This document shows positions 2,428 through 34,596 of a stretch of DNA of 43,296 nucleotides, piece by piece. This stretch comes from Spirochaetota bacterium. GTDB lineage: Bacteria > Spirochaetota > Brachyspiria > Brachyspirales > JACRPF01. Position 1 is the stretch's first letter; each line of letters begins with the position of its first letter. A model generated the notes under the pieces. It did not search any database. It saw nothing but the letters and a program-made list of their open reading frames with translations, and was not told the DNA's origin. Made by a program: the position numbers and the translations under genes. The stretch covers positions 356,244 to 399,539 of the forward strand of contig JACRPF010000014.1 of the NCBI GenBank assembly GCA_016214035.1, given 5' to 3'.

Positions 2428-2949
2428 TTACCAGAGTACTTTCCAGTCTTTGGCGGGAGAGAACACCAGCAGCGCCACACCGGTAATCCGTGACACGTTG
2501 ACAAACCCGTACGCGCGGCTGTCCTCGCTTACGATTCGATTATCCCCGAGCACGAATATCGAATTCGACGGCACACGATAGGCAGTATTCTCGGGCATGG
2601 GCGTAACCGTATACGGTTCGCTCAGATTCGTTCCATTGATGATTATCCGGTTATGCGATAGCACCACCGTATCGCCGGGCAGCCCGATAACACGTTTCAC
2701 CAGAAATGACCCCGGAGATGCGGCATCATCAAAAACAACGATGCGGCTTCTCGCGAGCGATTGTGACGCGTGCTCAGGAGAAAACCGGAACATACCCTTA
2801 AATATCAGTATCTCGTCTCCGGCATGAATTGCCGGCTCCATGGAACGCGATGGCACGATGAATGTCTGAAACAGGAATATCCTTATGCAGACGGCGATGC
2901 TCACCGCGATGAACCCGGCGATGATAATCTCGATTATCGAGCGCTTCAT
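2428..2949 (-). CDS. lepB: Signal peptidase I
   Basis: A 173-residue type I signal peptidase (S26 family), which removes signal peptides from exported proteins at the outer face of the cytoplasmic membrane. One N-terminal membrane helix (residues about 8-28) is followed by box B SRSMEP with the nucleophile Ser36, box D FLVKRVIGLPGD with the general base Lys85, and box E GDNRIVSEDSRAYG. The length is typical of the short Gram-positive or spirochaetal type with a single membrane anchor. Its ATG overlaps the recG stop by four bases (ATGA), so it is translated from the recG message. No second signal peptidase is visible in the window. Confidence 0.95.
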   Translation of the reverse strand: MKRSIIEIIIAGFIAVSIAVCIRIFLFQTFIVPSRSMEPAIHAGDEILIFKGMFRFSPEHASQSLARSRIVVFDDAASPGSFLVKRVIGLPGDTVVLSHNRIIINGTNLSEPYTVTPMPENTAYRVPSNSIFVLGDNRIVSEDSRAYGFVNVSRITGVALLVFSPAKDWKVLW

Positions 2950-4994
2950 ACGTTCGGCTCCGCAGACTGCAGATGTGCGGCAAGATAATCCCGCCGCGCG
3001 TTAAAATCGGCGATACCGGCCGGAGTGTCGGCAAGAAACCGCAACGCCGCTGCACGCGCATCACGCATGATATCCGCGTCACGGATGATATTTCCGGCCT
3101 TGAACTCGGGCAATCCGCTCTGCTTCACGCCGAGAAATTCACCGGGCCCGCGTATCTCAAGATCGGTCTCCGCTATCTTGAAACCGTCATTCGTCTCACA
3201 CATGATTTTCATACGGGCCGACGCGATATCTGCCAGTTCGCCGTGATTCACGAGATAGCAGAAACCGTCCCTGCCGTTGCGTCCCACGCGCCCGCGAAGC
3301 TGATGCAGCTGCGAAAGCCCGAACCGTTCCGCGCCTTCGATGATGATCGTCGTCGCGTTCGGTATATCGATACCTACTTCAATGAGCGATGTGGCGAACA
3401 GCACCTTGAGTTCTCCGGACGCGAAGCGCGCCATCGTACCGTCGCGTTCAGGAGCCGGCATTCTCCCGTGCACCATGCCGGCGGGGATATTGAACAGATA
3501 GTCGGCGCAAACTGTATGATATTCATCTACAAGCGTGAGTATTTCATCATCAGCGCTTTCGCTGATGACCGGAAACACCACGAACCCCTGCTCACCTTTT
3601 GCGATACGGCTTTTGAGAAATTGATAACAATGCGAACGGTCCGCAAGCCCCATCGATTTTGTCTTCACCGGAATGCGTCCCGGGGGCATCTCGTCTATCA
3701 CTGACAGATCGAGTTCGCCGAACAGCGTCATCGTCAACGATCGCGGTATCGGGGTTGCCGTCATCAGCAGATAGTCGACATTCGATCCTTTGGAAAGCAG
3801 CACGTTGCGCTGATCAACACCGAAGCGCTGCTGTTCATCTATTATTGCCAATCCGAGAGACGCGAATGATACCGTTTCCGACAGCAGCGCATGCGTTCCG
3901 ATGATGATATCGCATTTCTTCTCCGCGATATCCCTTGTTGTGCCCTCGCGGTCATCTGATGTACCGGTAAGCAGAGCGATGACCGCGTTATCACCGAGCA
4001 GTTTACGTGCGGTTGCGGCATGCTGGCGCGCAAGCACCTCGGTGGGTGCAAGCAGTGCCGCCTGATAGCCGTTTTCCACCACTACCATTGCGGCAAGAAG
4101 CGCGACAATGGTCTTGCCGCTGCCCACGTCGCCCTGCAGAAGACGGAACATCTGGCGGTCGGACATAAGATCAGCGGTAAGTTCTCCGAGAACGCGTTCC
4201 TGTGCACCGGTAAGCGTGTACGGTAATGTCCGTTTCAATGCATCCATACGTACAATTGAACTGTATCGCGGTGCCTTTTTGAGTACCGGCGGCCGATTCG
4301 CGGCAAGATACATCGTCTGAAAGGTGAAAAATTCTTCAAAAATGATAGTCCGCTTCGCTTTTTCTAATGATGAAAACGCCGCGGGTTCATGCATCTCGGC
4401 GAGCGCATCAGCATAGCACATCGTACCTTTCAGTTTGTACGGCGATGGAATATCGTACTTGAGCGCCCGTTGAATAACGGTCATCTGCTGGTGAATGAGC
4501 GCGCGCATTTTTTTCTGCGAAAGCCCCGCGGTAAGCTCATACAACGCAACAATGCGCCCGTATGAAGCAGGCGTTCCGCCGGAAAGTTCAATCTCGGAAA
4601 TGGAGCACTGCACGCCTTTGAATCCGCGCTTGAATTTCCCGGTGATGACGACCTGCACACCCACCTCGAATCCTTTCGGCATGCGGCCTGAAAAAAGCGG
4701 CGCCTGCGCGACATGATCCCCGTCAGTGACGATGAGTTTCGGCACGGTGCGGAAGTTCACGGTGAGCGACTCAATCCCGGCAATCTCAACGAGAACTACG
4801 GCATTTTTATCCGGAGTAGTTATCGCTTCGGTGATGGTAACCATCTTCGTGCGGTCCTCATAATCACGCGGGAAAAAAGTTACGAGATCGAACAGCGTAT
4901 GGATTCTTTTTTTCGCGAGGATCTCCTCGAAGTACGGACCTACGCCCTTAGAGAATTTCACATCCTGTTCGATGAGATCTTTGATCGTCGACAT
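2946..4994 (-). CDS. recG: ATP-dependent DNA helicase RecG
   Basis: A superfamily 2 helicase that remodels stalled forks and Holliday junctions. The N-terminal wedge/OB region includes the helix-hairpin-like KGVGP segment. Helicase motifs run in order: Walker A GDVGSGKT (about residues 288-295), the DEXH box as IIDEQQRFG, motif III LLMTATPIPRSL, motif V FATSLIEVGIDIPNAT and motif VI QLRGRVGRNGRDGFCYL. The protein is 682 residues from the chosen ATG at 4994, close to the 690 or so usual for the family. An in-frame ATG at 5045 would add 17 residues that do not look conserved. Neither start has a strong ribosome site. It is followed by lepB with a four-base overlap. Confidence 0.95.
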   Translation of the reverse strand: MSTIKDLIEQDVKFSKGVGPYFEEILAKKRIHTLFDLVTFFPRDYEDRTKMVTITEAITTPDKNAVVLVEIAGIESLTVNFRTVPKLIVTDGDHVAQAPLFSGRMPKGFEVGVQVVITGKFKRGFKGVQCSISEIELSGGTPASYGRIVALYELTAGLSQKKMRALIHQQMTVIQRALKYDIPSPYKLKGTMCYADALAEMHEPAAFSSLEKAKRTIIFEEFFTFQTMYLAANRPPVLKKAPRYSSIVRMDALKRTLPYTLTGAQERVLGELTADLMSDRQMFRLLQGDVGSGKTIVALLAAMVVVENGYQAALLAPTEVLARQHAATARKLLGDNAVIALLTGTSDDREGTTRDIAEKKCDIIIGTHALLSETVSFASLGLAIIDEQQRFGVDQRNVLLSKGSNVDYLLMTATPIPRSLTMTLFGELDLSVIDEMPPGRIPVKTKSMGLADRSHCYQFLKSRIAKGEQGFVVFPVISESADDEILTLVDEYHTVCADYLFNIPAGMVHGRMPAPERDGTMARFASGELKVLFATSLIEVGIDIPNATTIIIEGAERFGLSQLHQLRGRVGRNGRDGFCYLVNHGELADIASARMKIMCETNDGFKIAETDLEIRGPGEFLGVKQSGLPEFKAGNIIRDADIMRDARAAALRFLADTPAGIADFNARRDYLAAHLQSAEPNV

Positions 4995-5080
4995 GGTACG
5001 CTGGATCATGCCGGGTATCATATGGCAGATCGGGGTGAAAAACAAGAATACGGATTATGCAAAAACACCGCGTTGGTGTA

Positions 5081-5944
5081 TCACATGCCGCTCTTCCGGT
5101 ATGCGCCCGGAGACATGCCGATGGCGTTCCTGAAAACGCGGCAGAAATGATTCGCATCAGGCATACCGGTGCGGATGCCCACTTCATGTACGGTAAGCGA
5201 TGTATTCCGGAGCAGATCCACCGCCCGCCGTATTCGCACCTGCATGATATACGCTGCCGGCGAGACCCCGGTATGTTCGCGGAAAACCCGAGTAAAATGG
5301 TATCTGCTGTACCCCGACTGATATGCCAGATCGGCTACCGACAGATCCAGACCGGTATTCGAAGCAATGTATCGTTTCACCCGTGTCAGCCACACGGCTT
5401 CGTGTCCGGATTCCTGTTCCCCGGCGGCCGCGTCACAAAGCATCATCGTCAGACGATACGCCGCCTGCGAGGCGTCAAATGCCGACGTGAACGCTCCGTC
5501 ACGCGCCTGCTCCAGAATATCCACGGCACATCCCACGGCGCGGCACTCCGCATCCATAGTGAGAAGCGCGCCGTACCGTTTCACCATGTCTTTCCATGCA
5601 GCCATAACCGCACTGCCGTTAAGACAGATATAGACGAACTCCCATGACCGGGATGATGCCGGCAGCCGATAACGATTATCGTGCGGGAAATAGAGCAGCA
5701 TCGCTGTTCCCGGTTTGACATGGCGGGTCGTGCCTTCATACGTCAATTCACCTTCGCCGCGCAGTGTATATTGAAACAATGCGAATTCGGCTTTTCCGCG
5801 TTTCAATCCGTGCCAGTCGTATGTTGATTTTGTCTCATTGCTGTATCCGGCGCTTACCACCATCGCATGAAGCGGCAATGGGGCAACGGGAAGCACTACT
5901 CCGGCGCTTCCGAGACCGATGCGCTTAAGACGTTCCGTTGTCAT
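5081..5944 (-). CDS. AraC family transcriptional regulator with N-terminal cupin domain
   Basis: A 287-residue regulator. The N-terminal part (about 1-170) is an AraC-type cupin sensor with strands around RGEGELTYEGTTRHVKPGTA. The C-terminal 100 residues hold the two helix-turn-helix motifs, the first around LSVADLAYQSGYSRYHFTRV and the second around VHEVGIRTGMPDANHFCRVF, ending with the usual GMSPGAYRK signature. It lies 27 bases downstream of the dehydrogenase-fold gene at 5972-7123 on the same strand and is probably co-transcribed with it. The ligand is unknown; family members of this shape commonly sense sugars. Confidence 0.9.
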   Translation of the reverse strand: MTTERLKRIGLGSAGVVLPVAPLPLHAMVVSAGYSNETKSTYDWHGLKRGKAEFALFQYTLRGEGELTYEGTTRHVKPGTAMLLYFPHDNRYRLPASSRSWEFVYICLNGSAVMAAWKDMVKRYGALLTMDAECRAVGCAVDILEQARDGAFTSAFDASQAAYRLTMMLCDAAAGEQESGHEAVWLTRVKRYIASNTGLDLSVADLAYQSGYSRYHFTRVFREHTGVSPAAYIMQVRIRRAVDLLRNTSLTVHEVGIRTGMPDANHFCRVFRNAIGMSPGAYRKSGM

Positions 5945-5971: not shown

Positions 5972-7123
5972 TCAGTATGCCTGTTCGAGCAGCGTCATGA
6001 TGTCATCCATTCCCATTGGTCGCGGTATGGTATTCAGCGCATTGAACGTGAGCATATCCTGCGCGAGCTGTTTGAAATGTTTGCTCTCGATGCCGATTTC
6101 CGAAAGACGCGTGGGCAGATTGAACTCGGAGAGATATCTGCGCATGTTCTCCACGCTTTTAATAGCCGCTTCAAGCACCGATATATCGCTCACGTCCTCG
6201 CCGAAAATACGCGCTATCTGAACAAACCGCGCCGCGGCAGAAGTGATATTGTATTCCATGATTGACGGCAGCATCACCGTGACGGCGACACCGGGATTGA
6301 TGCCGCGCTGACTGTTCGCAGCGAGCGCGAATGCCCGCAATGCGCCGGTGCTGCAGCCGTTCACCGCGATGGACCCGAGGATGGATGCCATGCCCATGTT
6401 GAGACGGTATTGAAGATTCGACTGACTTTCAACGACATGCTTGAGGTTCTGCACCACCAGTTCCATGGCGCGGAGCGCAAGCGAATCGGATATCGCGTTT
6501 GCCTGACGAGAAATGAACACCTCGAACGCGTAGCCGAAAATGGCGATGGCCGATGTGGCAAGGAATTTTGAAGGTATGGTAAGATGCAGTTTCGGGTCGA
6601 TAATGCATTCCGCGGGATGTATCATCGGATTGACCATCTCTTTATTCACTTTGTCGTATTTATCGAGCACGCAGAAACCGCTTGTCAGTTCGGCAAGCGT
6701 CCCCGGTATGGTCGGCACGGTTATCAGCGGCATCGCCTGATTCGTTATCTTCTGTCCGTTCACATAATCCGACGATTCACCGCCGTTGGTCACCACTGTT
6801 GCGGCAGCTTTGCCGATGTTCATCGTGCGGAATCCGCCCACCGCAATGATAAGCTCCGCGGTGCCGAAACGGGCGATATTAGCCGCAAGATCGGCCTGAT
6901 TCGAGTCACTTTCACTGGTTACATCGTCAAACACCGTGGTGTTGATGTTGTTCTCATGCATCTGCTTGAGTGTCTCGTCGATGATACCGGTATCAGACAA
7001 TGTCTGGCCGTTCGTAATGATAAGTGCACGTTTACCGTATTTTTTGCTTATCCTGCCGAGTTCCGAAAACGCACCGTTGCCGAAGGTCAGCATCGTGGGA
7101 AGCGTGAATTCGAAATATGACAT
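5972..7123 (-). CDS. Iron-containing alcohol dehydrogenase-fold protein, predicted catalytically inactive
   Basis: The 383 residues align along their whole length with group III (iron) alcohol dehydrogenases such as FucO. The start MSYFEFTLPTMLTFGNGAF, the segment IIDPKLHLTIPS and the C-terminal PRPMGMDDIMTLLEQAY all fit. My hand alignment places the four metal ligands of FucO (Asp196, His200, His263, His277) at Ala194, Tyr198, Leu267 and Pro277. The nucleotide-binding GGGSxxD motif is GGFRTMN (residues 96-102), and the PTTAGTGSE loop is PTIPGTLAE. The fold is therefore kept but the metal site and cofactor loop are gone. The reading frame is intact, so this is a diverged protein and not a decaying gene. 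The start has a GAGG site five bases upstream. The next gene downstream is an AraC regulator. Confidence 0.85.
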   Translation of the reverse strand: MSYFEFTLPTMLTFGNGAFSELGRISKKYGKRALIITNGQTLSDTGIIDETLKQMHENNINTTVFDDVTSESDSNQADLAANIARFGTAELIIAVGGFRTMNIGKAAATVVTNGGESSDYVNGQKITNQAMPLITVPTIPGTLAELTSGFCVLDKYDKVNKEMVNPMIHPAECIIDPKLHLTIPSKFLATSAIAIFGYAFEVFISRQANAISDSLALRAMELVVQNLKHVVESQSNLQYRLNMGMASILGSIAVNGCSTGALRAFALAANSQRGINPGVAVTVMLPSIMEYNITSAAARFVQIARIFGEDVSDISVLEAAIKSVENMRRYLSEFNLPTRLSEIGIESKHFKQLAQDMLTFNALNTIPRPMGMDDIMTLLEQAY

Positions 7124-7309: not shown

Positions 7310-7732
7310 ATGAGCACTGCACCGAATAAACAACGTAATCTGCTTCGCGACACACGCAACCTTGAGATAGCCACGGTTGTCCGCAAAGATGTGCGACTTA
7401 AAGGCGATATCAATCTGCATACGTCCATGAAGATAGAGGGTGAGTTCGAGGGTTCCATCACCTGCAGCGGCTATATCCATATCGGCAAAGGCGCAATCAT
7501 CAAGGCGGACATCAAAGCCGATGTCGTGGCGGTAGAAGGAACGGTCACCGGAAACATCTACGCTTCGCATAAAGCCGAGCTCGGCCCCACGGCGGAAGTA
7601 CACGGCGACATCACCACACATAAGCTGAAAATGGCCGACGGCGTCAATTTCAGCGGCATTTGCAAGATGCTCCGCGACGACGGAACACCGGTAACACCTT
7701 CGCCGGCGCCCATTGCTCCGACGAAAGCATAG
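7310..7732 (+). CDS. Bactofilin family cytoskeletal protein
   Basis: A 140-residue protein with a central bactofilin (DUF583) beta-helix, about residues 20-120, seen as repeating short strands such as LKGDINLHTSMKIEGEFEG and GTVTGNIYASHKAELG. The flanking tails are unstructured, the C-terminal one rich in Pro and Thr. Bactofilins polymerise into filaments without nucleotide and help localise cell-wall or envelope enzymes. The ATG at 7310 is chosen because it begins the conserved tail; the frame stays open upstream but the upstream residues look non-coding. A purine-rich GGAAAGGAA lies about 25 bases upstream, farther than usual. The glycosyltransferase gene follows after 8 bases. Confidence 0.88.
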   Translation: MSTAPNKQRNLLRDTRNLEIATVVRKDVRLKGDINLHTSMKIEGEFEGSITCSGYIHIGKGAIIKADIKADVVAVEGTVTGNIYASHKAELGPTAEVHGDITTHKLKMADGVNFSGICKMLRDDGTPVTPSPAPIAPTKA

Positions 7733-7740
7733 GACATCTG

Positions 7741-8475
7741 ATGATCGAATCTAAAAAACTGTTCGGTGTCCGTGTCGATATTCTCAGCGGCGACATTGAG
7801 AATGAACTTGCATCCGCACTCGGCGTCAAGGGCAACGTCATCGTTCCGCTCACCATGAAAAAGCTCCTCATGCTCCGCAGGAACGCGAAACTGCGCGAAA
7901 CGGTGAATAATGCATTTCTTGTCCTTCCCGCAGACCGCTTCGTGCAATGGGCGGTACGTTTCCTGTATAAGATCTATGTTCCGCTTGTCACTGAAAGCGT
8001 ACTGCTCAACAAGATATTCGCTCTCGGCAACGCGAAACGGCTTTCATATTTTTTCTACGGCTCTACCGACGAGCACCTGTTCGTTCTGCAGCAGAAGCTC
8101 AAGCGCCTGTATCCCGGGCTCACCATCGTCGGTGCATACCGGGAAAAAATCCCTGATGGCTGGGAGGAAAAGGTAATCGAAGGTATACGAAAGACCGATG
8201 CCACGTTTCTTCTGCTCATGATGCGTTTCCCCCGTGATATGTCATTTATCGCCGAACATAAAGACAAGCTCCACCTCACCTTCTACCTCGGCAGCGATGC
8301 GCTCAACTATTTCAGCGGACGTAAAAAGCCGCCGCCGCCGTGGGCCATCGATCGCGGGCTTGAATGGCTTTCATCCGCTTTGGCCCGCCCATGGCGCATA
8401 CATGCGGTATTCAGATATCTGCGCTTCCTGATTCTGGTGCTGTTTGAGAAGTTTACAAGAAAAGATCTTCGGTAG
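7741..8475 (+). CDS. Divergent WecG/TagA/CpsF (GT26) family glycosyltransferase
   Basis: A 244-residue protein matching the GT26 fold in order: an N-terminal segment, FFYGSTDEHLFVLQQKLKRL, YPGLTIVGAY, FYLGSDALNYFSGRKK and GLEWLSSALARPWRIH. GT26 enzymes transfer ManNAc or ManNAcA to a lipid-linked sugar at the membrane. Two signatures are altered: the usual PDG around the catalytic Asp reads LPAD (62-65), and the usual PKQE reads PRDM (164-167). The donor or acceptor may therefore differ, or activity may be changed. The C-terminal basic and hydrophobic tail (about 215-244) suggests membrane association. It is co-transcribed with the bactofilin, suggesting localised envelope or polysaccharide synthesis. 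Confidence 0.8.
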   Translation: MIESKKLFGVRVDILSGDIENELASALGVKGNVIVPLTMKKLLMLRRNAKLRETVNNAFLVLPADRFVQWAVRFLYKIYVPLVTESVLLNKIFALGNAKRLSYFFYGSTDEHLFVLQQKLKRLYPGLTIVGAYREKIPDGWEEKVIEGIRKTDATFLLLMMRFPRDMSFIAEHKDKLHLTFYLGSDALNYFSGRKKPPPPWAIDRGLEWLSSALARPWRIHAVFRYLRFLILVLFEKFTRKDLR

Positions 8476-8478
8476 TTT

Positions 8479-8560
8479 TGCGAGCGGAGGGACTTGAACC
8501 CCCATACCTTGCGGTACCAGATCCTAAGTCTGGCGCGTCTGCCAATTTCGCCACGCTCGC
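8479..8560 (-). tRNA. tRNA-Leu (UAG anticodon)
   Basis: On the minus strand the sequence starts GCGAGCG and ends CGCTCGC plus the discriminator A, forming a perfect seven-pair acceptor stem. It has the long variable arm of tRNA-Leu, a T-loop GGTTCAAGTCC and a seven-base anticodon loop CTTAGGA with the anticodon UAG (complement of 8524-8526). The 3' CCA is not encoded and must be added by the CCA-adding enzyme. Confidence 0.97.
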
Positions 8561-8783: not shown

Positions 8784-9701
8784 TCAGGCAAGATGCAGTA
8801 CGGTCACCAGAACCCATATCAGTATAAAACTCATGAGCATCGACACATTTGCCGCCATGCCGGTAATACGCGCGTCATAGTCGAGCTTAACACTCATCGG
8901 CAGAAATGCCATCGCCATGGGCAGAAGAACACATACCAGCAGAATGGTTCGCGCGAGCAGCGGGAACGGCAGCAGAAAGAAAAGCAGCAATCCCGCGGCA
9001 AGACCGAAACCGTAGCGAACGGCGATTATATACAGAACCGATTTCAAACGCGAACGATCGAACGAGAAGTCGAGATACAACCCGAGCGTCAGCAGCACCA
9101 GCGCCGCATTCGCCTGAGCGGGAACGGAAATAAAGTCGATGACCGGCGCGGGAAGCCTTATCCCGCTCAGATTCAGCGCGATGGAGACTATATAGGTGAT
9201 AAACGGCGCCGACGAGAGCAGCGCACGAATTATCACCCCCGGCGATATGCCGCGTTTTCCGCCGTCCGCATGAACGGCACCGATAAGATACGCTGTGACG
9301 AACACGGCGAACGCATTACCGAGATCGAACATAGCCGCATGCGCGAGACCCGCAGCACCCCAGATGCCTTCGATAAGCGGGTACCCGAACAGCGCCACAT
9401 TGAATCCTGATGCGCACATGGAAAGATGACCGCGCGTTCGCGCATGATACTTTCTGAGCAGCACGAGCGAGAACAGCCCGAGCGCACTCGCATAGATGAG
9501 CGCAAAACCGGTAAGAAATCCGAGTGTCGGCGTCAGTGTAACGGCGGAAACAGTTTTGAGTATCACCGCAGGCATGGTGACATTAAAAATGACGAGCGAG
9601 AGGGTTTTACCGTCCTCTTCGCGGAGCACCTTCACCCGCTTGAGAATATAGCCGAGCGCAATGAGGCAGAATGAAAGCAGGAACACATGGTGTGCGCGCA
9701 T
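8784..9701 (-). CDS. AEC family (auxin efflux carrier-like) permease
   Basis: A 305-residue integral membrane protein of the AEC/BASS superfamily with about ten hydrophobic helices in two five-helix halves. Halves are split by a hydrophilic stretch near HADGGKRGISPG. Family-typical elements include the LSLVIFNVTMPAVILKTVS segment in the first half and the AALVLLTLGLYLDF segment in the second. Relatives export or exchange small organic acids or amino acids; the substrate cannot be told here. It starts 28 bases after galT on the same strand with a GAGG site, so the two are probably one transcript. Confidence 0.88.
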   Translation of the reverse strand: MRAHHVFLLSFCLIALGYILKRVKVLREEDGKTLSLVIFNVTMPAVILKTVSAVTLTPTLGFLTGFALIYASALGLFSLVLLRKYHARTRGHLSMCASGFNVALFGYPLIEGIWGAAGLAHAAMFDLGNAFAVFVTAYLIGAVHADGGKRGISPGVIIRALLSSAPFITYIVSIALNLSGIRLPAPVIDFISVPAQANAALVLLTLGLYLDFSFDRSRLKSVLYIIAVRYGFGLAAGLLLFFLLPFPLLARTILLVCVLLPMAMAFLPMSVKLDYDARITGMAANVSMLMSFILIWVLVTVLHLA

Positions 9702-9729: not shown

Positions 9730-10758
9730 TTACAATTCCGGAAGAACAATATCAGCCGATGCGTCGCGCATCTCGGCGGCGGCGACCTCAGGCAGCACGG
9801 TATTGACGAAGAGTCCCCCGGCATATTCCAGCCCGCCTTTGTGTTTGACCTGCGGAATAACGCTGAGATACCAATGAAAATATTCATTCTCACGCTCGTG
9901 ATGCGCCAGCGACTGTATCACATAGTTGAAATCGGGATTACGAAGCAGATTGAACATCTTCGCAAACACAACCTTCATGCATTCAGCCATCGCGGCTATC
10001 TCTCCATCGGTTATCAGCGCGAACGACGGGCTGTGCGATTTCGGCACGATCCAGAAATGATACGGAGACAGGTCAGCATACGGCATGAGACAGATGAACA
10101 TCGCATTTTCAAAGACCACGCGCACCTGTTCATCATCCTCTTTTTTCAGGATATCGCACATAAGGCAGCTGCCGTTCAGGTCGTGATAGCGTTCCCCCTC
10201 CCTGAGCCGGATGTTCGCCTCGAACGGAATTACCGGCAGCCCGTACAACTGTGAGTGTGAATGTTCAAGCGACCCGCCGGCGCGAATTCCCTGATTTTTG
10301 AATACAACGATATGCCGGACCAGATTATTGCGCTGTATCTGCTGATACCGCATCCGGTATGCCGTGAGCAGATAGGTGATTTCAATGGTCGACATGAGCG
10401 CAAGTATCATGTTATGTTTCGGATTATCGATGACTACATCGTGGATTCCGAAGCCTTCTATCTCGTTTCGCAGATGTGAAGTCCGTTTCGTCGGCAGAAC
10501 CGTACGATCAACACTTGAAAAGAGGTTTTCGAGGATACGCACACGCCAGCCGTTCTCTCCGTCAAGTCTGAGCAGTTCCCTGTCTTCAGGTTTTTCATTC
10601 CCCGGACAGAACGGACAATCAGGTTTATGCGCCGGACGTGCAGCCAGAATGGACACATTGTCATGTTCATCCGCCTTAAGATCGCGCGGACGCTTCGCTC
10701 TATTGGGGGCGAATATGACCCAGTCATTGGTTATAACATTTTTTCGAAATACCGACAT
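9730..10758 (-). CDS. galT: Galactose-1-phosphate uridylyltransferase
   Basis: The 342-residue protein has two HIT-like halves. The first half carries the zinc cysteines DCPFC (Cys48, Cys51) and the active-site motif GGSLEHSHSQLYGLP, in which His168 should be the uridylylated nucleophile. The second half has FHWYLSVIPQ. GalT swaps UMP between UDP-glucose and galactose-1-phosphate in the Leloir pathway. The motif reads HSHSQ where E. coli has HPHGQ, which is common in GalT relatives acting on other NDP-sugars, so the substrate is not certain. No galK or galE is adjacent. Confidence 0.87.
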   Translation of the reverse strand: MSVFRKNVITNDWVIFAPNRAKRPRDLKADEHDNVSILAARPAHKPDCPFCPGNEKPEDRELLRLDGENGWRVRILENLFSSVDRTVLPTKRTSHLRNEIEGFGIHDVVIDNPKHNMILALMSTIEITYLLTAYRMRYQQIQRNNLVRHIVVFKNQGIRAGGSLEHSHSQLYGLPVIPFEANIRLREGERYHDLNGSCLMCDILKKEDDEQVRVVFENAMFICLMPYADLSPYHFWIVPKSHSPSFALITDGEIAAMAECMKVVFAKMFNLLRNPDFNYVIQSLAHHERENEYFHWYLSVIPQVKHKGGLEYAGGLFVNTVLPEVAAAEMRDASADIVLPEL

Positions 10759-14130: not shown

Positions 14131-15178
14131 CGCTATCAGACTCGGTGCTGCCCTCGGGGCGTTTATCGTCTGCATATCCTGCGCATGGGATGCCGGATTC
14201 ACCGTTGACGACAAAGTAAGTTTTCTGCTGGAAAAAAGTACGCGCACATCGGAGCTTGCGGCTGACGCTCCGGCACGCCTCATCGAATCGCGCGACTATA
14301 TCCTTCGCGCCATGAGCTTCGACCCGCAGGACAGTGATGTCAAAAATGCGCTTGCGGCCATCGAGTCAAGTATCGTGGCGCGGAAACGCTCCGAGCACTA
14401 TACAGCCAAAACGCTGATCGCACGAAAAACATATCTTGACGCCGCCATCCGCCTCAACAATGCGCGCGCACTGCGGTTCCCCGACAAACCGGAGGACACA
14501 ACCGACAAAAGCGTAACCGCATCGCTTGACTCGATCCGCCCCATGCTGCAGAAGGAAATCGACGCGCAATTGAAAAGCGCGGAGAAAAAGCTTGCCGCCA
14601 AGGACATATCTGCCGCGTATGATATGTACCGCCGCGTCCTCAGAGCGGACCCCGGCAACGCGACAGCGCAGCAGAAAATGGCGCAGCGCGAGGACCAGCG
14701 TAATGCCGAAGCGGCAAAGCTCGCCGATTCCGGCCGCAAAGAATACGACCGCGGCAACTTTGACGGTGCGCTGAGACTGCTCAAACAGTCATACGCGATA
14801 AAAAAGGATATTGCCACGGCCGATCTCATCTCGCGCATCAGCACCGTTCAGATGAACCGGAAATATTCGGCCGAGGCTGAAAATTACCGCGCAAAGGGCA
14901 ATTATCTGGATGCGCTCAGGATGTATCGCCGTTGTAAAACGAACGACCCGCAGAACATCGCCTACGACACGCAGCTGCAGGCGCTTACCAGAAATCTGAT
15001 GCCGTCGCTTGACGGGTGGCTTGCGGGCGGTATCGCCAAATACAATGAAAGCGACTTCGAATCGGCTATTGAACTTTTCGAAAAAGTGGTTATGGTCGAC
15101 GATACATTTAAAGACACGCGCAGTTATCTCGACCGCAGCCGCCAGAAACTTGAAGCAGCGTTGAAAGCGGCGCAGTGA
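14111..15178 (+). CDS. TPR-repeat protein, probable lipoprotein
   Basis: A 355-residue protein with an N-terminal hydrophobic segment ending in a lipobox-like CISC (cleavage before the Cys near residue 24), which suggests lipid anchoring. The mature part is almost all helical with TPR-like pairs, for example AYDMYRRVLRADPGNATAQQ, ALRLLKQSYAIKK, ALRMYRRCKTNDPQNIAYD and AIELFEKVVMVDDTFKD. TPR proteins act as binding scaffolds; no catalytic domain is seen. It overlaps the cyclase gene by 20 bases and the next regulator gene by four bases, so the three genes form one operon. Confidence 0.85.
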   Translation: MSSKSNSAIRLGAALGAFIVCISCAWDAGFTVDDKVSFLLEKSTRTSELAADAPARLIESRDYILRAMSFDPQDSDVKNALAAIESSIVARKRSEHYTAKTLIARKTYLDAAIRLNNARALRFPDKPEDTTDKSVTASLDSIRPMLQKEIDAQLKSAEKKLAAKDISAAYDMYRRVLRADPGNATAQQKMAQREDQRNAEAAKLADSGRKEYDRGNFDGALRLLKQSYAIKKDIATADLISRISTVQMNRKYSAEAENYRAKGNYLDALRMYRRCKTNDPQNIAYDTQLQALTRNLMPSLDGWLAGGIAKYNESDFESAIELFEKVVMVDDTFKDTRSYLDRSRQKLEAALKAAQ

Positions 15179-16083
15179 AACGCACTACGCAGACAGCCGT
15201 ATCCCCCCTCACGCTGCTCTGGGCATCGCGCTACGAATACAAAGCTGTGCTTAAGACGCATCGTCACCGGATATGCAATCAGCTCTTCTACATAATTTCC
15301 GGCAGCGGTTATTTTACGCTCGGCGGAAAACACTATCCGTTCACCGCAGGCGATTTATTCATCGCCCGCAACGGCATCGCACACGGCCTGATGCCGAAAG
15401 GCTCCGCCGCAGTGCAGACCATCGAAGCCAAATTCGATATACACGAAAACCGGCTGCTCGCCGCGCTCCGTCATTCATCGGGATATTTCCATGACACCAC
15501 ATCGTTTGCCGCGCAGCCGCTTACCATGATGCACGATGAAGGCATGCGCCGCAATGAGTTTTACCGTGAGATTGCCGTCCATACGCTTTCGGCGCTGTTG
15601 TATCGTCTGTTGCGCAGCACGACAGAGGACCAGCGTCCTGCCGGCGACGTGAACGATATCGCGTTCGACCCTACCGTACAGGCCGTCATTGACTATTTGG
15701 ATAAAAATATCACAAGCCACCTGTCGCTTGCCGCTACCGCATCGGCAACAGGTTATTCCACGCGTCATGTGAGCGCACACTTCAAACGCATCACGGGCAT
15801 GACGGTGTTTGATTATGTGAAACACATGCGCATCGCCGCGGCAAAACAGCTCATACGTACCACACAGCTCCCGTTCGAGGATATAGCCGCGAAAACCGGC
15901 TTTGAAAACGTGCAGCATTTCAACCGTATCTTCAAGGCGGTCACCGGAGTACCGCCGGGCAAATGGCGTTCCCGCGAACGTGACGGTATACGCAAGGACA
16001 TCATGTTCGAACCAGCCGCGCTTACGGCAGTCAAAGGGGATTATATGAAGCCCGATGAAAGGACACGAACCCGGAAACATTGA
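15175..16083 (+). CDS. AraC family transcriptional regulator
   Basis: A 302-residue regulator with an N-terminal cupin (about 15-110, including SGSGYFTLGGKHYPFTAGD) and a C-terminal AraC DNA-binding domain (about 160-265). Its helix-turn-helix motifs lie around LSLAATASATGYSTRHVSAH and FEDIAAKTGFENVQHFNRIF. The tail of about 35 residues past the domain is basic. The GTG start overlaps the preceding stop (GTGA), giving translational coupling. It converges on the URO-D gene with a 27-base gap and may regulate it or sugar genes. Confidence 0.9.
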   Translation: MKRTTQTAVSPLTLLWASRYEYKAVLKTHRHRICNQLFYIISGSGYFTLGGKHYPFTAGDLFIARNGIAHGLMPKGSAAVQTIEAKFDIHENRLLAALRHSSGYFHDTTSFAAQPLTMMHDEGMRRNEFYREIAVHTLSALLYRLLRSTTEDQRPAGDVNDIAFDPTVQAVIDYLDKNITSHLSLAATASATGYSTRHVSAHFKRITGMTVFDYVKHMRIAAAKQLIRTTQLPFEDIAAKTGFENVQHFNRIFKAVTGVPPGKWRSRERDGIRKDIMFEPAALTAVKGDYMKPDERTRTRKH

Positions 16084-32653: not shown

Positions 32654-33701
32654 TCTTACCGCGATAATTATTGCTGCGGCTGTTTTGGCAGCCCAGACAA
32701 ATACGAACAGCGTGACAAACGCCGCAGCCGAATCTCTTTTCCAGGAAATGACGTATGTGGAAAGCGGCATCACCGGAGAGCTGAAAGAGATCACGACCGC
32801 CATGGGCGATGACATTATGCTTCAGATTGTGACTACGAATTTCTCATCGTACGTCAGACTCACGGAAATCGATACCAATTATCTTGAATTCGTATCGATG
32901 ACACGTGATAAAATGCGATCGCAGCTTCTCTTAAAAGCGCACAAAGAGGGTACGGCGCAGGTATCGGTTGAACTTATTGAAGACCTCACGGTGCGCTCGG
33001 CGACGACATACCGGGTCACGATCACACCGCCGACGAAGCGCGAGACGGCAGTGGTTGGAAAAAAAGATAAAGACACCGAAGACAGGCGATACTACCTTAT
33101 CGCCATGGACCTTTTTAAAGCCAGGGCATATGCCGAAGCAAAGGAAATGTTCAACCGCGTTGTTCAGAAATTCACCGGGACGGAATTTTCCGGAAAAAGC
33201 ATCAATGCGCTCGGCGATATTGCCATGGCGCAGAGTAATTACAGTGAAGCCTTGGCAAACTACAAACGCGGTTCCGAGACCGGTACCGGCGCCGAACGCG
33301 AACGTTCGCTGCTCTCCTTGGGACGTTGCCAGGCAGAGATGAAAGATCTTTCCAAAGCACTCGCATCATTCCTTTCACTGGAACGTCTCTATCCCGACAG
33401 CGTTTATGCCGGCGATGCGCTGTTCTTCGCCGCGCAGACGATGACCGCGATGAAGAACAGAAACGGCGCCGTAGACACACTCAGCCGTTCGATATCACGC
33501 TACAAACAATTTGAAAAACGCGCCGAGAGCATATACCTCCTTGCTTCGCTGTATGACAAAGGAGGCAGCGAAGTACGCGATCTCGCAGCTGCCCATAAAT
33601 ACTATGGCGAATACATCACACAGTATCCCTCCGGCCCGCAGTTCAGCGCGGCGCTTGAGCGAAGAACGTATCTCGATAAAAATTTCATTAATCTCCGTTA
33701 G
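32631..33701 (+). CDS. TPR-repeat protein, probably exported
   Basis: A 356-residue protein with an N-terminal signal-like hydrophobic segment (about 5-22). A beta-rich region follows (about 40-140), then TPR-like pairs (about 150-350), for example DLFKARAYAEAKEMFNRVV, ALGDIAMAQSNYSEALANYK and SLLSLGRCQAEMKDLSKALA. The repeats resemble those of periplasmic YbgF/BamD-type proteins. AAGGATA lies near the ATGATG start. An AraC gene follows after seven bases. Confidence 0.85.
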   Translation: MMNLFFRNLTAIIIAAAVLAAQTNTNSVTNAAAESLFQEMTYVESGITGELKEITTAMGDDIMLQIVTTNFSSYVRLTEIDTNYLEFVSMTRDKMRSQLLLKAHKEGTAQVSVELIEDLTVRSATTYRVTITPPTKRETAVVGKKDKDTEDRRYYLIAMDLFKARAYAEAKEMFNRVVQKFTGTEFSGKSINALGDIAMAQSNYSEALANYKRGSETGTGAERERSLLSLGRCQAEMKDLSKALASFLSLERLYPDSVYAGDALFFAAQTMTAMKNRNGAVDTLSRSISRYKQFEKRAESIYLLASLYDKGGSEVRDLAAAHKYYGEYITQYPSGPQFSAALERRTYLDKNFINLR

Positions 33702-33708
33702 TTGCGCC

Positions 33709-34596
33709 ATGCCGTCACCGCTTGTCCGCAATACACTCGCCCGGCTTATCGATACACTCACCGCACCGGAGCTTTCCATCATCGATGCTGCGAAACCGCA
33801 GCGAGCTGAAAAACGCGAGATAATCCCGAATGAATACGAACACGCGCATGAAAAAACGTTCGAGTTCATTTATGTGGATGCAGGATCGTTAATACTCACC
33901 TGCAACGGGAGACCGGTGCGATTCACGGCTCCGTGCCTCATCATCATGCCGCCGGGCGTGCGTCACCACGAACGGCCGTTGAAAAACGGCGCCGCATACC
34001 GCGCGCTCTGGATAGCCATGCATGAGCATACTGATATCTGGGTATCACACCGGGATGCGCGCCTGCCCTACCCTCGTTACAAAACCGCCGCACACCTGAA
34101 AGCGCCTATCTCGCTTGACAATTACCTTATCGATTACCGCGATCTTTTTTCAAACGACCGCTATACGATGCTGTATCAGCGCAACCGGTTCATCAACTAC
34201 TGTATCGCGGTGCACCGCCACCTCGGTGCTGCCGAAGAAACGGAATCGCCCACCGGCGAAGTCACCTATCTCATGAAGACGGCAATGCAGGACGCCACGC
34301 GTTTCATCGAGGAGAACTACACGCGGGCCATCAGCGTATCCGACGTTGCGGCGAATGCCGGATATTCGAGCGACCATTTCTCGCGGATGTACCGGAAGAT
34401 CTACGGCATATCGCCGCTTGCGCTCATCTCGAAACTGCGCCTCGAGCGCGCGAAAAAGCAGCTCACCGCTTCATCATTGCGGATTACCGAGATCGCGAGA
34501 GATGCGGGCTATGCAAACCTTACTTATTTCATCGCCGTGTTCAAAAAAACGTACGGCGTATCGCCGTCGGCATACCGCGAACGGAAAGTGCTGTGA
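33709..34596 (+). CDS. AraC family transcriptional regulator
   Basis: A 295-residue regulator with an N-terminal cupin sensor (about 30-130, with YEHAHEKTFEFIYVDAGSL and IIMPPGVRHHERP). The C-terminal domain (about 190-295) has helix-turn-helix motifs around ISVSDVAANAGYSSDHFSRM and ITEIARDAGYANLTYFIAVF, ending YGVSPSAYRER. The ATG at 33709 is chosen because upstream in-frame residues overlap the TPR gene and are not conserved. It is the third cupin-AraC regulator in the window. Confidence 0.9.
   Translation: MPSPLVRNTLARLIDTLTAPELSIIDAAKPQRAEKREIIPNEYEHAHEKTFEFIYVDAGSLILTCNGRPVRFTAPCLIIMPPGVRHHERPLKNGAAYRALWIAMHEHTDIWVSHRDARLPYPRYKTAAHLKAPISLDNYLIDYRDLFSNDRYTMLYQRNRFINYCIAVHRHLGAAEETESPTGEVTYLMKTAMQDATRFIEENYTRAISVSDVAANAGYSSDHFSRMYRKIYGISPLALISKLRLERAKKQLTASSLRITEIARDAGYANLTYFIAVFKKTYGVSPSAYRERKVL

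Follow-up and report, generated by a model that had tools for sequence, protein, structure and literature searches.

A ligand-less iron alcohol dehydrogenase fold retained across Spirochaetota and its linkage to flgM

FlgM is the anti-sigma-28 factor, and sigma-28 is FliA. According to PMC12655853, which cites its reference 40, FlgM of Treponema denticola is reported to stabilise FliA and to influence both the number and the polarity of the flagella; spirochaete FlgM behaves unlike the homologues of other bacteria (PMC12655853). An iron alcohol dehydrogenase (iron-ADH)-like partner of the T. denticola FlgM/FliA circuit was not mentioned in the literature searched. In Pseudomonas, the gene for the iron-ADH-like protein ErcA belongs to an ethanol-oxidation cluster, where it is accompanied by a histidine kinase gene (PMC12997753). 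The enzymes of this fold closest to the protein described below are the group III iron ADHs, which include FucO, the 1,3-propanediol dehydrogenase of structure 3bfj, and Bacillus methanolicus Mdh.

The window, by which we mean the whole 43,296-nucleotide stretch of DNA analysed here, contains an intact open reading frame of 383 codons with zero stops, which confirms that the gene is full length and in frame, as the initial annotation had stated. Both PF00465 (1.2e-34) and PF25137 (2.9e-31) span the protein end to end, and its nearest solved structures are 1,3-propanediol and methanol dehydrogenases. The AlphaFold2 model, calculated from a 66-sequence alignment (pLDDT 94.2, pTM 0.91), matched 3bfj with a TM score of 0.95 in Foldseek, in agreement with the iron-ADH fold first proposed. 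Alignment with 3bfj revealed that all 4 metal-ligand columns (D, H, H, and H) are substituted and that the NAD(P) loop GGGSxxD reads GGFRTMN, the loop replacement having already been recognised. We designate this ligand-less iron-ADH-fold protein pseudo-FeADH. Its features are as follows:

5972-7123, minus strand: pseudo-FeADH, 383 residues (open reading frame, Pfam, alignment, model, and tree)
6818-6838, minus strand: residues 96-102, GGFRTMN, in place of GGGSxxD (alignment with 3bfj)
6542-6544, minus strand: Ala194 codon, place of a metal-ligand Asp (FucO Asp196)
6530-6532, minus strand: Tyr198 codon, place of a metal-ligand His (FucO His200)
6335-6337, minus strand: Arg263 codon, place of a metal-ligand His (FucO His263)
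6293-6295, minus strand: Pro277 codon, place of a metal-ligand His (FucO His277)

The initial annotation was right about Ala194, Tyr198, Pro277, and the overall loss, but the residue that it gave for the third ligand, Leu267, has to be replaced by Arg263: Leu267 pairs with an adjacent conserved His (FucO His267), one helix turn off from the pair formed by FucO His263 and Arg263. Relocation of the ligands to neighbouring residues, the check proposed at the outset, was rejected from the sequence and the model; the active-site stretches 190-202 (SAIAIFGYAFEVF) and 258-280 (STGALRAFALAANSQRGINPGVA) contain zero His, Asp, or Cys residues. The Asn of the NPR motif, present in all canonical rows of the alignment, is absent from the pseudo-FeADH family (Ile366 in the window protein), and the stretch TIPGTLAE, close to the canonical TTxGTxSE, is kept in the window protein. 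Judged from its residues, the window protein would be placed among the dehydrogenases by its fold and Pfam domains but not by its metal site or NAD(P) loop, and it is almost certainly a non-metal pseudo-enzyme.

A profile of 23 ligand-less proteins (A1) was searched against 149 spirochaete genomes, each at least 90% complete, and the loci were then read. The lineage labels used below (Borreliaceae-like, Brachyspira-like, Treponema-like, and the like) were assigned from genome size, named genome records, and genomic context. Ligand-less pseudo-FeADH was present in 139 of the 149 genomes. Because the same loss recurs in so many genomes, the ligand loss in the window protein is not a chance event. 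Members of the clade were defined as keeping at most 1 of the 4 ligands, and the window protein keeps 0 of 4. Among 156 ligand-less rows, 139 keep no ligand, 16 keep 1, and 1 keeps 2, whereas the full set of 4 is present in 63 of 66 canonical rows; a His at the 263-equivalent position occurs in 0 of the 156, and Lys or Arg occupies a ligand site in 66 of them. Brachyspira-like orthologues have the loop GGFKIQN and S/L/R/K at the ligand positions, with many other combinations in other lineages. Ordinary full-ligand iron ADHs also occur in spirochaetes (L132-L136, L138, L143, L146, and L147) and served as internal controls. Three members sampled later (L325 of G203, L327 of G418, and L342, with L365, of G277) keep 2 of the 4 ligands, and one of these also has the loop GGGSTLN; they look like decay intermediates and could reveal the order of the losses. 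From the window's family, just one more genome was sampled (G001; L053/L261); it has FlgM, its only iron-ADH gene is canonical, and a ligand-less gene is absent.

A conserved-motif scan (A3) was run across 84,980 species genomes. Its members, among the matches listed, are records of Turneriella, Leptospiraceae, Brevinema, Brevinematales, and Brachyspira; no non-spirochaete member was found among the matches listed and checked, and those readable at the loop kept GGGSxxD. Nearly all non-spirochaete proteins checked among the matches listed keep their ligands, the exceptions (L248 and L253) being partly changed. The absence of the family outside Spirochaetota is thus supported, not proven. When the window protein alone was used as the query of the named genomes' contigs, there was no match, whereas the conserved-motif scan did match.

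In a tree built from 53 ligand-less and 26 canonical sequences, for which no root was inferred and whose deepest branches are poorly resolved, the ligand-less proteins all lie on one side of a single branch (SH-aLRT 99), and the window protein groups with its order-mates (99*). A second tree, from which the ligand and loop columns were removed and to which four unplaced rows were added, was consistent with this split and placed the canonical test row L259 among the canonical proteins. With respect to canonical iron ADHs, the family is shown to have arisen once. The median dN/dS was 0.08 (269 pairs from 26 Brachyspira-like pseudo-FeADH genes); pseudo-FeADH is a maintained protein, on which purifying selection acts in Brachyspira-like species, and not a decaying gene. 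The view that the protein is a conserved pseudo-enzyme is therefore strongly supported by its single clade, phylum-wide presence, and purifying selection. Conservation within the family is highest in the C-terminal helical domain (consensus of A1 and A3), whose conserved helices span residues 285-345 approximately and where E318, E325, R328, and R339, which are clearly more conserved in pseudo-FeADH than in canonical enzymes, are candidates for a new interface.

In most families, the usual gene order is rsmI, flgM, and the pseudo-FeADH gene, with RsmI identified by TIGR00096 and FlgM by PF04316, both above cut-off. By coordinates, flgM immediately precedes the gene, on the same strand, in 79 of the 149 genomes; these belong to 27 of 36 families, and counts of genomes are not counts of independent events. 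A further 12 families sampled later have the same flgM-adjacent placement, and highly divergent members (L160-162 and L165, 110-136 bits) also lie directly after flgM. This adjacency has been lost in the Brachyspira-like genomes, the window's among them, and throughout the window's order, as well as in Brevinematales-like families and f28. In the window genome, flgM is on a separate contig (C3), and no sigma-28-like promoter was found within 200 bp upstream of the pseudo-FeADH gene. In a Treponema-like genus, the gene has been relocated beside fliQ-fliR (L140) and lies approximately 2.5 kb from flhA in 4 of the 5 genomes.

FlgM was detectable in every gene-bearing genome among the 149 apart from G111, where a contig end truncates the copy. 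FlgM without pseudo-FeADH was found in G001, G127, and G072 (1.1 Mb, Treponema-like) and in G159 and G225 sampled later. The dependency is one-way: pseudo-FeADH implies FlgM and not the reverse, and these five genomes indicate that some FlgM circuits do without the gene. A loss of flgM in G072 together with pseudo-FeADH was considered and rejected; a spirochaete FlgM model finds flgM there in an rsmI-flgM pair (L279) that lacks the third gene, although Pfam PF04316 misses it, and the flgM annotation TPANIC_0974 (PMC8525777) is consistent with retention of flgM in this genome. Since flhA was positive in 149 of 149 genomes and gave no discrimination, fliR was used in a larger sample. All 19 genomes of family f45 have neither fliR nor FlgM. 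They encode several iron ADHs each, and among the 46 f45 genes read in these 19 genomes, which are part of the f45 matches, 43 are canonical, 2 partial, and 1 degenerate, the last being a low scorer of another subfamily that keeps GGGSxxD; no ligand-less gene was found among the 46. Pseudo-FeADH was likewise not found in lineages that have flagella but no detectable FlgM (six f34 genomes of Borreliaceae-like size, and G136). Because the gene is missing where FlgM is absent yet flagella remain, its loss would point more to regulation than to motor structure. The joint losses of FlgM and pseudo-FeADH represent few independent events.

We propose that pseudo-FeADH is an ancient, Spirochaetota-specific pseudo-enzyme family that serves the FlgM/sigma-28 circuit as a non-catalytic partner. 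We hold this full statement with middling confidence, and a role in this circuit is the most likely one for a protein with the fold, ligand loss, selection, and flgM linkage described above. Pseudo-FeADH would be a protein-binding scaffold in the FlgM/FliA switch for late flagellar genes, for example one that retains, stabilises, or frees FlgM, either alone or paired with FliA, and a small molecule bound in the former nucleotide cleft may tune it. In the window's order, the gene has left flgM for surroundings with recG, an AraC gene, and bactofilin, where the protein would be expected to do the same job. More tentatively, an early-recruited alcohol dehydrogenase may have been stripped of its metal and cofactor chemistry to become the third, dedicated member of the FlgM/sigma-28 switch and a class of flagellar regulator not yet described in other organisms, possibly an anti-anti-sigma factor or a factor for FlgM holding or export. 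No interaction, mutant, or expression results for pseudo-FeADH were found in the literature searched.

The window gene has the following neighbours:

2946-5045, minus strand: recG helicase, the next gene after the AraC gene on the same strand
5081-5944, minus strand: AraC-type regulator, 27 bp downstream of pseudo-FeADH
7310-7732, plus strand: bactofilin, divergent neighbour
7741-8475, plus strand: WecG/TagA/CpsF glycosyltransferase-like gene, after bactofilin
8479-8560, minus strand: tRNA-Leu, adjoining the WecG-like gene
8784-9701 and 9730-10758, minus strand: PF03547 membrane transporter and GalT-like gene, upstream on the pseudo-FeADH strand

In the Brevinematales-like locus L094 (317-2556), pseudo-FeADH is immediately preceded by genes for a DUF4921 protein and for a PF03547 transporter, and the transporter neighbourhood common to this locus and the window is possibly an old shared arrangement. 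A metabolic role deduced from larB, DUF4921, or laccase-domain neighbours was rejected since those neighbours are lineage-local. Two more AraC-type regulators were seen by eye in the same 43 kb (15175-16083 and 33511-34596, both plus strand), which makes an AraC gene beside any given window gene less remarkable.

The initial annotation had regarded the protein as a ligand sensor or scaffold for the adjacent AraC regulator, with which it is probably co-transcribed given the same strand and the 27 bp gap. This role was not borne out and is now very improbable. Ligand-less orthologues proved abundant, but none of those examined adjoins such an AraC gene: a tblastn search with the window AraC protein against some 170 loci around iron-ADH-like genes (to L173), mostly those of ligand-less relatives, gave no match beside any ligand-less orthologue examined, and the sole weak paralogue adjoins a canonical iron ADH in another genome. 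The AraC pairing is local, and pseudo-FeADH is far older than it. The disappearance of every catalytic metal-site residue might also be read as gene decay or an assembly artefact, a reading already refuted by full-length frames in more than 100 genomes, the low dN/dS in close relatives, and the confident fold; it retains next to no probability.

Two further explanations take account of the wider family. It is unlikely that pseudo-FeADH has been repurposed while retaining the ability to bind NAD(P) or a different nucleotide, so that it signals redox or metabolic state to a regulator, or that it carries out metal-independent chemistry. The loop still begins with GG and the Rossmann-like domain is kept (G96 in 100% and G97 in 84%), the TIPGTLAE of the window protein is near canonical, and a regulatory iron-ADH-like protein, ErcA, has been named in Pseudomonas (PMC12997753); against these, G98, S99, and D102 are lost in approximately 96-100% of rows and T139, G141, and K160 in most, and the TTxGTxSE stretch is wholly replaced in many members. 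The gene may instead have a housekeeping role in translation or cell shape, its product working with RsmI, with SpoU-type methyltransferases, or with bactofilin, and share the flgM operon by history; rsmI is upstream in most families, a SpoU methylase gene is downstream in f8 and a Treponema-like genus, and bactofilin is near the gene in the window and in L046 and L052. However, rsmI is widespread in bacteria whereas pseudo-FeADH is spirochaete-specific, rsmI-flgM occurs without pseudo-FeADH in G072 and G127, and pseudo-FeADH was not found in those genomes sampled that lack both flagella and FlgM, which makes the housekeeping role rather doubtful. The presence of rsmI in the same operon nevertheless counts against the preferred FlgM role in that the link could be partly to rsmI.

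A gene of most sampled spirochaete genomes thus bears an enzyme-type domain name, iron alcohol dehydrogenase, despite its lost active site, and the family is a clean example of an entire enzyme fold that was made non-catalytic once and then retained phylum-wide. If the tie to flgM is functional, pseudo-FeADH would be a component of the control of periplasmic flagella. Comparison with the group III iron ADHs revealed that (i) pseudo-FeADH shares the whole fold and both Pfam domains with FucO, 3bfj, and B. methanolicus Mdh; (ii) the structural residues G96, P137, D176P177, P286, and L340 are common to both; and (iii) unlike these enzymes, pseudo-FeADH has lost the metal ligands, the GGGSxxD loop, and the Asn of the NPR motif. 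ErcA (NF041833) resembles it as a regulatory iron-ADH-like protein, and several members have it among their best NCBIfam hits, but the members score 108-194 (193.8 bits for the window protein), below the NF041833 cut-off of 550, and ercA is not placed with flgM. As for the T. denticola FlgM/FliA circuit, pseudo-FeADH recurs directly downstream of flgM in spirochaetes, and such an extra partner might help explain the features reported for T. denticola FlgM.
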